64,000 nucleotides of DNA. Origin: Nitratireductor basaltis. GTDB lineage: Bacteria > Pseudomonadota > Alphaproteobacteria > Rhizobiales > Rhizobiaceae. Below the pieces are notes generated by a model. The model worked only from the letters and a program-made list of their open reading frames with translations, was not told where the DNA came from and ran no database searches. The position numbers and the translations under genes are program-made. Below, one piece after another: positions 36,517 to 39,144 of the stretch. Location: NCBI RefSeq assembly GCF_000733725.1, contig NZ_JMQM01000001.1, positions 744,001-808,000 on the forward strand, given 5' to 3'. Positions within the stretch are counted from its first letter, which is position 1. Every line of letters begins with the position of its first letter.

Positions 36517-36545
36517 TTGACCGGCGCAATTTTCGGTCTTATTGT
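36517..36545 (+). promoter_or_regulatory. Sigma-70-type promoter of the ilvB leader
   Basis: TTGACC (36517-36522) and TATTGT (36540-36545) are separated by exactly 17 bases. Counting seven bases on, transcription would begin at or next to the A of the leader ATG at 36553. It lies upstream of the ilv leader and attenuator. Confidence 0.65.
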
Positions 36546-36552
36546 CCGCGCC

Positions 36553-36606
36553 ATGATGAAGAAAATTCTTATCGTAGTAGGAACGCACATGGGCAAGGCG
36601 GCGTAG
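36553..36606 (+). CDS. ilv leader peptide, 17 residues, probably leaderless
   Basis: ATG ATG AAG AAA ATT CTT ATC GTA GTA followed by GGA ACG CAC ATG GGC AAG GCG GCG TAG. The product is MMKKILIVVGTHMGKAA, with Ile-Leu-Ile-Val-Val at residues 5-9, the control codons of a branched-chain amino acid attenuator. No ribosome site precedes it, but the promoter places the transcript start at the ATG, so it may be translated as a leaderless mRNA. Stem-loops follow at 36584-36633 and a terminator at 36641. Leaderless trpL leaders are known in Sinorhizobium; the match to that case is inference. Confidence 0.75.
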   Translation: MMKKILIVVGTHMGKAA

Positions 36607-36633
36607 CCGCCGGGCGAGAGCCACTCATGTGCG
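36584..36633 (+). promoter_or_regulatory. Pause/anti-antiterminator stem of the ilv attenuator
   Basis: CGCACATG (36584-36591) and CATGTGCG (36626-36633) are perfect complements, enclosing an inner GGCGG/CCGCC hairpin that overlaps the leader stop codon. GAGCC at 36618-36622 can alternatively pair with GGCTC at the foot of the terminator (36641-36645), giving an antiterminator. This is the expected mutually exclusive arrangement. Confidence 0.65.
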
Positions 36634-36640
36634 AAAGACA

Positions 36641-36663
36641 GGCTCCCACCGGGGGCCTTTTTT
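36641..36663 (+). terminator. Rho-independent attenuator terminator before ilvB
   Basis: GGCTCCC and GGGGGCC (one G-T pair, loop ACC) are followed by six T residues at 36658-36663. It lies 35 bases past the leader stop and 46 bases before the ilvB start, so it controls read-through into ilvB. Confidence 0.85.
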
Positions 36664-36709
36664 ATTGGCCAGACGACGACGCAATCAAGAAGAGACGGGA
36701 TCGGGAAAG

Positions 36710-38512
36710 ATGGATACGCGAGCGCCAAAAGCACAAGCCGCAGAAGCGGGCACCAGAGAGATGACGGGCGCTGAAATGGTCATCCAGGCGCTGAAAGACA
36801 ATGGTGTCGAGCATATATTCGGCTATCCGGGTGGCGCTGTTCTCCCCATCTATGACGAGCTTTTCCAGCAGGACGAGGTTCAGCACATCCTCGTGCGTCA
36901 CGAGCAGGGCGCGGGGCATGCCGCGGAGGGCTATGCCCGTTCAACCGGCAAGGCCGGGGTCATGCTCGTCACTTCGGGTCCAGGTGCTACAAATGCGGTG
37001 ACACCACTGCAGGATGCACTGATGGATTCCATCCCCCTGGTCTGCATCACTGGTCAGGTGCCGACCACCCTTATCGGTTCCGATGCGTTCCAAGAATGCG
37101 ACACTGTGGGTATCACCCGTCCCTGCACCAAGCATAACTGGCTCGTGCGTGACGTGAACGAGCTTTCTGCCGTGCTTCACGAAGCCTTCCATGTGGCACA
37201 AACCGGCCGTCCCGGTCCCGTCGTCGTCGATGTGCCCAAGGATGTGCAGTTCGCTACCGGTCTCTACACGCCGCCGCAGACGGCTCCGCGTACCAGCTAT
37301 CAGCCGCAGGTGCAGGGCGATCAGGAAAAGGTTCGCGAGGCTGTCGCGCTCATGGCTTCGGCCAAGCGTCCCGTCATCTATTCGGGCGGCGGTGTCATCA
37401 ATGCCGGGCCGGAAGCAAGTCAGCTTTTGCGTGAACTCGTCGAATTGACGGGTTTCCCGATCACCTCCACGCTGATGGGGCTTGGTTCCTATCCTGCTTC
37501 CGGTGAGAACTGGCTGGGCATGTTGGGCATGCACGGCACCTATGAGGCCAATTTGTGCATGCATGATTGCGATGTCATGCTGTGTATCGGTGCACGTTTT
37601 GACGATCGCATCACGGGCCGGCTGGATGCCTTCTCGCCGAACTCCCGGAAAATCCATATCGACATCGATCCCTCGTCGATCAATAAGAATGTTCATGTCG
37701 ACATTCCGATCATCGGCGACTGCGGTCAGGTTCTGGAGGATCTGGTCCGTCTCTGGCGGGCGGGTGCCAAGGCAGACAAGAAGGCGCTGCAGCCCTGGTG
37801 GGAGCAGATCGAGAAATGGCGCGCACGCAATTCCCTGGCCTATCAGCACAACAATGATGTGATCATGCCGCAATATGCCATCGAGCGGCTGAGCGCACTG
37901 ACCAAGGATCGCGACACCTACATCACCACAGAGGTCGGCCAGCATCAGATGTGGGCTGCCCAGCATTTCGGTTTTGAGCAGCCAAACCACTGGATGACTT
38001 CCGGGGGGCTGGGGACCATGGGCTACGGTCTGCCCGCAGCTCTTGGCGTGCAGGTTGCACATCCCGATGCGCTCGTCATCGATATCGCAGGTGATGCGTC
38101 GGTTCTGATGACGATCCAGGAGATGAGTGCTGCAGTTCAGCACCGGGCCCCGATCAAGATCTTCATTTTGAACAACCAGTATATGGGCATGGTACGGCAG
38201 TGGCAGCAATTGCTTCATGGCAACCGCCTGTCCCATTCCTATACGGAGGCGCTGCCGGACTTCGTGAAGCTGGCGGAAGCTTATGGCGCACATGGCATTC
38301 GTTGTGAGAAGCCGGGCGACCTCGATGATGCCATTCGCGAGATGATCGAGGTCGACAAGCCGGTCATCTTCGATTGCCGCGTGGCCAATCTCGCCAATTG
38401 CTTCCCGATGATCCCGTCGGGCAAGGCGCATAACGAGATGCTTCTGCCCGACGAAGCAACGGACGAGGCAGTGGCGAATGCGATTGATGCGGAAGGCCGA
38501 TCCCTGGTCTGA
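36710..38512 (+). CDS. ilvB: Acetolactate synthase, large (catalytic) subunit
   Basis: A 600-residue thiamine-diphosphate enzyme, first common step of Val/Leu/Ile synthesis. The cofactor-activating Glu65 lies in VRHEQGAGHAAEGYAR. The TPP/Mg motif is GDASVLMTIQEM...NNQYMGMVRQWQ. Length fits the family. ATG 36710 has GGGAAAG upstream; the frame is open back to 36629 but that part overlaps the terminator. ilvH follows after 59 bases. Confidence 0.96.
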   Translation: MDTRAPKAQAAEAGTREMTGAEMVIQALKDNGVEHIFGYPGGAVLPIYDELFQQDEVQHILVRHEQGAGHAAEGYARSTGKAGVMLVTSGPGATNAVTPLQDALMDSIPLVCITGQVPTTLIGSDAFQECDTVGITRPCTKHNWLVRDVNELSAVLHEAFHVAQTGRPGPVVVDVPKDVQFATGLYTPPQTAPRTSYQPQVQGDQEKVREAVALMASAKRPVIYSGGGVINAGPEASQLLRELVELTGFPITSTLMGLGSYPASGENWLGMLGMHGTYEANLCMHDCDVMLCIGARFDDRITGRLDAFSPNSRKIHIDIDPSSINKNVHVDIPIIGDCGQVLEDLVRLWRAGAKADKKALQPWWEQIEKWRARNSLAYQHNNDVIMPQYAIERLSALTKDRDTYITTEVGQHQMWAAQHFGFEQPNHWMTSGGLGTMGYGLPAALGVQVAHPDALVIDIAGDASVLMTIQEMSAAVQHRAPIKIFILNNQYMGMVRQWQQLLHGNRLSHSYTEALPDFVKLAEAYGAHGIRCEKPGDLDDAIREMIEVDKPVIFDCRVANLANCFPMIPSGKAHNEMLLPDEATDEAVANAIDAEGRSLV

Positions 38513-38571: not shown

Positions 38572-39144
38572 ATGAATGCACAACTTCAGCCTACCGGTTC
38601 GGCCTATTTCATCACCAAGGAAACCGAGCGCGATGAACGGCGCACACTTGCAGTGTTGGTCGATAACGAGCCGGGCGTCCTTGCACGCGTGATCGGTCTT
38701 TTCTCCGGCCGCGGCTACAATATCGACAGCCTTACCGTATCCGAAACCGAGCACGAGAAGCATTTGTCACGCATCACCATCGTGACGCGCGGCACCCCGC
38801 ATGTCCTTACGCAGATCAAACATCAGTTGGAGCGCATCGTGCCGGTGCACCGTGTCGTTGATCTGTCAGAAGTCGCTGAAGAGCGTGGTCATGATCGTGC
38901 CATGGAGCGTGAGCTGGCACTGGTGAAGGTGCGTGGCAAGGGTGAACAGCGGGTGGAGGCCCTGCGTCTGGCGGATGCGTTTCGTGCGCAGGTGATCGAT
39001 GCCAATACCGAGCACTTCATCTTCGAGATTACGGGACGTGTTTCCAAGATCGAGCAGTTCATCTCGATCATGACACCGCTTGGCCTCGTTGAGGTCTGCC
39101 GTACCGGTGCTGCCGCCATGAACCGCGGTCCGGAAGGCATGTGA
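38572..39144 (+). CDS. ilvH: Acetolactate synthase, small (regulatory) subunit
   Basis: A 190-residue protein with an N-terminal ACT domain (RRTLAVLVDNEPGVLARVIGLFSGRGYNIDSL) that binds valine for feedback inhibition, and a C-terminal ALS_ss_C domain (ANTEHFIFEITGRVSKIEQFI). It partners IlvB and lies 59 bases downstream in the same unit. Confidence 0.95.
   Translation: MNAQLQPTGSAYFITKETERDERRTLAVLVDNEPGVLARVIGLFSGRGYNIDSLTVSETEHEKHLSRITIVTRGTPHVLTQIKHQLERIVPVHRVVDLSEVAEERGHDRAMERELALVKVRGKGEQRVEALRLADAFRAQVIDANTEHFIFEITGRVSKIEQFISIMTPLGLVEVCRTGAAAMNRGPEGM

Follow-up and report, generated by a model that had tools for sequence, protein, structure and literature searches.

A predicted leaderless attenuator before ilvB of Nitratireductor basaltis belongs to the Atu_C8 RNA family and has relatives before transporter genes

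Results

Organisation of the ilvB locus

The window analysed here is a stretch of 64,000 nt from Nitratireductor basaltis (GCF_000733725.1, contig NZ_JMQM01000001.1, 744,001-808,000 of the forward strand); all coordinates are window positions, and all features lie on the plus strand. The gene under putative control is ilvB (ilvI, 36710-38512, predicted start), encoding the acetolactate synthase large subunit, whose frame from 36710 holds three TPP-enzyme domains. An ilvN (ilvH)-like ORF for the small subunit, recognised by eye and from its position, follows at 38572-39144. Upstream lie a -35 box TTGACC (36517-36522) and, after a 17-nt spacer, a -10 box TATTGT (36540-36545); a promoter scan called one promoter-like site in 501 bases, against a mean of 0.1 in shuffles. 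Transcription is predicted to start 7 nt past the -10 box, at the A of the leader ATG (36553). This first ATG opens a frame of 17 codons (36553-36606) for the peptide MMKKILIVVGTHMGKAA, containing the presumed regulatory codons ATT CTT ATC GTA GTA (Ile-Leu-Ile-Val-Val, 36565-36579). An intrinsic terminator, AGGCTCCC-ACC-GGGGGCCT (36640-36658), is followed by a run of six T ending at 36663. The promoter with its 17-base spacer, the 17-codon Ile-Leu-Ile-Val-Val frame and the U-tailed terminator ahead of ilvB had all been described in a sequence-only reading of this DNA and are confirmed in the sequence. An inverted repeat, GACCG...CGGTC (36519-36538), lies between the -35 and -10 boxes and is absent in the genus mates L103, L104 and L107.

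RNA structure and family membership

A 111-nt RNA folds at -49.9 kcal/mol (z -5.2), and none of 200 shuffles goes as low. Ahead of the terminator, folding gives a nested 1:2 hairpin (36584-36633), with an outer long helix (36584-36593 with 36624-36633), a stop-codon hairpin (36597-36602/36606-36611) and a small hairpin with a GAGA loop (36613-36615/36620-36622), the last left out of the pair counts. The first structure set holds 68 own-family-type leaders (52 before ilvB, 15 before MFS genes, 1 before an ABC gene); of its 1562 pair cells 96.5% are paired, against 35-52% when slid. Double changes occur in 11 of 23 pairs (long helix 1/9, stop-codon hairpin 6/7, terminator 4/7), and four of five covariation measures beat all 500 shuffles, further pair types being matched by 22 of the 500. 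A second set, of 38 leaders with 34 drawn from other families, has 93.1% of 684 cells paired (34-60% when slid) and double changes in 10 of 18 pairs overall, with 8 of 11 in the long helix. The long helix of the window and its four genus mates also carries a compensatory GC-to-AU change. The sequence-only reading had named covariation as a check on its stems, and both the hairpin, by its outer helix in the two sets and its stop-codon hairpin in the first, and the terminator do covary in relatives. By eye, L005, L116, L123, L125, L126, L127, L129 and L203 form a second structural type, with a C-rich terminator after the 3' arm of the hairpin and little or no linker; a script called a ribosome-site-like motif in L125 and L127 only.

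The element matches the Rfam family RF02502 (Atu_C8) at 36552-36674 with 102.4 bits (gathering score 50), covering model positions 1-122 of 122, and is a well-preserved member of this known attenuator and sRNA family. The terminated RNA of about 110 nt that had been predicted corresponds to what Rfam catalogues as the sRNA Atu_C8. With matches counted at E 0.001, under stricter filters that lose weak ones, 290 of the 297 sampled genomes of the window's own family carry RF02502 (105 of 109 genera; 283 above the gathering score); the seven that lack it measure 1.2-2.0 Mb. It was found in 161 of 297 genomes drawn from the order (49 above the gathering score) and in 6 of 385 drawn from the class (2 above), where the matches in two of the six are chance-like. 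Beyond the element, the window's genome holds no second copy other than four matches of 15.5-17 bits (E 2.2-5.6), taken as chance.

We read 105 RF02502 places in the DNA, chosen as best scores plus second copies rather than by random draw, and recognised their genes by eye: 90 precede ilvB, 10 an MFS gene and 1 an ABC gene, and 4 are chance-like. The chance-like rows (L006, L007, L008, L117) were dropped, while L004, an ilvB case of 32 bits, was counted as ilvB and kept outside the alignments. In S. meliloti Ak57 and a Shinella the element precedes ilvI, and its divergent neighbour in S. meliloti is a DUF87 gene. Two ilvB copies (L043 and L044) lie in tandem about 2.7 kb from each other, and each has a leader of its own (MRSLLVVL... 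and MPSF[F/C]VVL...).

Tests for a conserved antiterminator

Competing stem-loops had been proposed as part of a full attenuator. In the window an alternative of 5 bp, GAGCC with GGCUC, can form, but its gain is the same with the ribosome stalled (-6.2 kcal/mol) as with the ribosome at the stop codon (-6.4), and its core lacks clear covariation. Masked folding of the nascent RNA, a rough guide only, was run on 54 rows; L045 (no terminator found) and L047 (no frame found) were unscored, and the terminator of L040 was misassigned. Pairing upstream brings strand 3 about 0 to -1.8 kcal/mol in L013-L019, all of a single genus. As controls, five E. coli leaders gain -7.7 to -14.4 kcal/mol, of which his is not clean, gaining -3.7 at the stop too, and the trpL leader of the window's genome gains -19.5.

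In duplex tests against single-base shuffles, not one of 68 leaders has a freed strand more complementary to the first arm of the terminator than its shuffles (mean z +0.61). The long helix passes the same test in 68 of 68 and the terminator in 65, and four E. coli controls stand out (trp z -2.24, thr -4.55, leu -1.95, ilv -2.74). A conserved competing antiterminator is not supported by these tests. None appears in Rfam's consensus or in that of our own alignment. Among the 68 leaders, pairing of strand 1, the codons or the linker with strand 3 or 4 falls below z -1.64 in at most 3 rows; pairing of the codons with strand 2 does so in 11 rows (mean z -0.7). By masked folding, duplex shuffles and pair counts, a conserved classical antiterminator was rejected for the own-family type.

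A classical attenuator could nevertheless operate with a weak antiterminator, AGCC with GGCU over 4-5 bp, that is kinetically sufficient here and stronger in some relatives, a reading that we hold to be possible if somewhat doubtful. The window does form its 5-bp version, and over the 68 leaders 87.4% of 239 cells of the 4-bp core pair, above all 500 shuffles (mean 85.3%). In three leaders from other families a stalled ribosome gives a larger gain than one at the stop (L052 -9.3 vs -0.2 kcal/mol, L046 -8.3 vs -3.1, L031 -7.5 vs -2.9). Yet the core has only 2 double-change cells, a number reached by 98 of 500 shuffles, the small hairpin of the 1:2 domain accounts for the same bases, L013-L019 lack the AGCC-GGCU pairing and the duplex shuffles do not pick it out. 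For the own-family type the comparisons suggest no conserved 2:3 antiterminator, though one may be present in a few relatives of other families.

Conservation of the probable leaderless start

Start spacing was examined in 60 own-family leaders, of which 59 were scored (53 before ilvB, 5 before MFS genes, 1 before an ABC gene); L115 gave no frame, and L116 was not included. All 59 begin with ATG; 58 have TTGAC called as the -35, and TA forms the first two bases of the -10 in 56, the poorer -10 boxes being those of L097, L106 and L112. The gap between -10 and ATG is 7 nt in 14 leaders, 8 nt in 44 and, as called, 1 nt in L106, where another -10 chosen by eye gives 7. The information content of 58 distinct family upstreams has its maxima at -37/-36 (TT), -14/-13 (TA) and -1 (C, 1.62 bits), the pattern that a transcript beginning at the A of the ATG would be expected to give. 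Relative to the start of the Rfam model, the first ATG sits at -5 (1 leader), -2 (43), +1 (9) or +4 (6) nt, never more than 5 nt away, and the genus mates L102, L103, L104 and L107 agree with leaderless spacing. A probable leaderless start had been proposed for the window, and it gains support from promoter spacing: 58 of the 59 family leaders have the 7-8 nt gap, with C at -1 and A at +1. The leader peptide start is very probably leaderless.

The likeness to the start of trpL, pointed out at the same time, also holds within the window's own genome, where trpL (MSMIANTIAWWWVR; L067, upstream of trpE(G)) has TATTGA and an equal gap of 7 nt before its ATG. This trpL is a second apparently leaderless attenuator in that genome.

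Ten relatives from family f179 (L025, L027, L032-L036, L041, L042 and L050, all ilvB leaders) behave differently: no promoter with leaderless spacing was called in them, GGAG stands 11-15 nt before the start in 10 of 10, and their start codons are GTG in eight and ATG in two. Both start modes thus seem present on one attenuator, which lets leaderless starts be compared, in nature, with apparently ribosome-site-led ones. Unlike these ilvB leaders, two f179 copies before MFS genes (L020, L021) retain leaderless spacing; these transporter copies may come from another lineage.

A short untranslated leader, with transcription starting a few bases upstream and initiation of another kind, would not be strictly leaderless, and it could accommodate the fact that the start is a prediction, that start choice can shift by 1-3 nt and that the -10 does not begin with TA in 3 of the 59 family leaders. 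We nonetheless judge it unlikely, as the gap of 7-8 nt leaves a leader of about 0-2 nt and no space for a ribosome site, and the ten f179 relatives without leaderless spacing all have their GGAG.

Codons and peptide

The Ile, Leu and Val codons, whose conservation in relatives was another proposed check, are kept in 53 of 53 scored family ilvB leaders: the last Val of the run is invariant, and Ile or Leu stands ahead of it in every case. V-V-G and the I/L run are conserved, while the residues before the run and one codon outside the helices vary. Compared with five window genes, the leaders are rich in ATT (56% vs 10%), CTT (61% vs 19%) and GTA (19% vs 4%), a rough comparison, since the leaders were drawn from many genera; GTG, their main Val codon (68%), is common in the five genes too. 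Since residues outside the codon run and helices are free, the pattern points to selection on codons and RNA structure more than on peptide function, and peptide conservation among the family leaders lends no support to a trans-acting reading. A reading in which the RNA serves chiefly as a trans-acting small RNA and/or makes a functional peptide like rnTrpL/peTrpL, its place before ilvB being secondary, is slightly less likely still than the short untranslated leader: Rfam does list Atu_C8 as an sRNA gene, almost all sampled genomes of the family carry the element, its fold is very stable, and trpL products are reported to act in trans in S. meliloti (PMC7298713), but most of the places read lie before ilvB with the terminator in between, and what is kept is the regulatory codons.

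Copies before transporter genes

Two RF02502 matches occur in 12 of 297 own-family genomes. Of the second copies, 7 precede an MFS gene, 3 an ilvB paralogue and 1 an ABC gene, and 1 has no plausible gene after it; further MFS cases come from the two f179 genomes and from one genome of another order (L003). The ABC case is a copy of 99.8 bits (L112:1141-1260, plus strand) before an ABC-exporter-like gene whose displayed NCBIfam matches are all below their cut-offs; the other copy of the element in that genome (L083) precedes ilvB. Four MFS proteins were compared with NCBIfam, and Bcr/CflA was the best match in all four, above its cut-off for L113 and L021 and below it for L039 and L114; CmlA/FloR was among the next matches, below its cut-off.

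A protein scan of named genomes, blind to leaders, gave at least 80 loci; among the matches listed, leaders stand before the transporter gene in Devosia, Kiloniellaceae, Minwuia, Rhizobium lusitanum, Mesorhizobium and others. A search of 151 family genomes gave 16 strong protein matches, 2 of them with a leader. The window's own genome gave no transporter of the leader-bearing type at E 1e-120. A protein tree made by a quick method has 82 rows, comprising 57 of the named loci, 15 of the 16 strong family matches and 10 rows found by their leader; it leaves out L200, which is L039 again, and 23 named loci, in none of which the upstream scan flagged a leader. Twenty rows bear a leader (L003, L020, L021, L039, L040, L111, L113, L114, L115, L116, L120, L121, L125, L126, L127, L131, L137, L153, L165 and L203), all within one 27-row clade (SH-aLRT 92, below the 95 mark), and L123 and L129, inside the same clade, have weaker leaders by eye that are additional to the 20. 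Leader presence changes 4 times on the tree, against a shuffled mean of 18.0. Among the 72 rows found by protein, a leader is present in 10 of 17 inside the clade and 0 of 55 outside (Fisher 3.6e-8, a guide only, since the split was chosen after the tree was seen).

The transporter leaders differ in their codons, VVV being present in 16 of the 20 and in 0 of the 53 family ilvB leaders. A promoter gap of 6-8 nt is found in 15 of the 20; it is absent in L116, L125, L126, L127 and L203, which by eye have the different, C-rich terminator.

Discussion

The frame, the codon run, the conserved helix and terminator, the conserved start spacing and the position before ilvB are read from sequence and comparison; the transcription start, the translation and the starvation response of the window leader are inferred. 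The proposal of an ilv leader peptide with an attenuator is supported by the codon run, the hairpin and the terminator before ilvB, and we consider it highly probable that the element controls the ilvB-ilvN operon by ribosome-mediated transcription attenuation from a leaderless start. RNA polymerase would begin at, or within about 2 bases of, the leader ATG, so that the ribosome would initiate on a leaderless message. With enough charged Ile, Leu and Val tRNA, the ribosome would complete the 17 codons, the nested hairpin would close and the terminator would form, releasing a 110-nt RNA, Atu_C8. When charged tRNA is short, the ribosome would stall on ATT-CTT-ATC-GTA-GTA with the 5' arm of the long helix beneath it, and polymerases would read on into ilvB more often. 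Should an antiterminator truly be absent, read-through after stalling would not be explained here by the textbook switch.

The catalogued rhizobial sRNA Atu_C8 would thereby gain a clear cis function, and readers of RNA-seq data need not presume a free sRNA. More tentatively, and with confidence a little short of even, we propose that the Atu_C8/ilv attenuator senses starvation as a leaderless module open to recruitment, and that it has a second regulon: before a separate Bcr/CflA-type clade, relatives of CmlA/FloR, it would act as a Val-Val-Val sensor, it also stands once before an ABC-exporter-like gene, and it would turn genes on with no classical 2:3 antiterminator. On this view the transporter would either take up valine or a precursor, or expel compounds that starve the cell of valine or stall its ribosomes. 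The transporter copies predict an inducer for an uncharacterised branch of efflux-type transporters. This branch and the step by which stalling would defeat the terminator are the parts most worth follow-up.

Comparison with known systems

An attenuator of alphaproteobacterial ilvB/ilvIH was reportedly predicted by Vitreschak in 2004. That work is credited by Corbino 2005 (PMC1273637) for the alphaproteobacterial ilvB/ilvIH leader and by Valverde 2008 (PMC2573895) for the ilvB/ilvIH attenuator, the latter paper also treating an ilvIH cis element in S. meliloti, and attenuation is described for Caulobacter ilvBN (PMC4117421). As a kind, the ilv counterpart of trpL that had been suggested is not new: two later papers place the prediction of the attenuator in 2004, and the RNA is in Rfam. 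The window element shares with the attenuators of S. meliloti and Caulobacter the gene, the amino acids and the type of control; the portions of those reports considered here state neither a leaderless start nor the missing conserved antiterminator. With RF02502 it shares a full-length match, the helices, the stop-codon hairpin, the terminator and, at most places, the position before ilvB; Rfam, in contrast, types the family as an sRNA gene ('Rhizobiales sRNA Atu_C8'), with a description line that omits an ilv attenuator role. Listings of the open-access literature, rather than full texts, gave no publication on the function of Atu_C8 and, among the matches listed, none on an attenuator leader before Bcr/CflA genes.

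The E. coli leaders ilvL, leuL, thrL, trpL and hisL have the same elements of leader codons, hairpin and terminator, but they show a clear antiterminator in the same tests, his being the least clean and absent from the duplex test. E. coli attenuator leaders are not known to be leaderless. Attenuators ahead of transporter operons are a theme shared with Naville and Gautheret 2010 (PMC2965389), who described premature terminators before exporter genes, one of them before a multidrug export operon; the cases in the portion considered are ABC-leaders in lactobacilli and others, with no Val leader of the Atu_C8 type before Bcr/CflA. The trpL of the window's genome differs from the ilvB element in its strong alternative pairing, by the script's choice of terminator. 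In S. meliloti, trpL is a leaderless, translated leader with a dual function (PMC10117765, PMC7298713). The Sinorhizobium trpL/rnTrpL/peTrpL system has other codons and another gene, and in the work considered trans activity is reported for it alone; what the window element would share with it is a leaderless leader peptide at the head of a small RNA that ends at a terminator.
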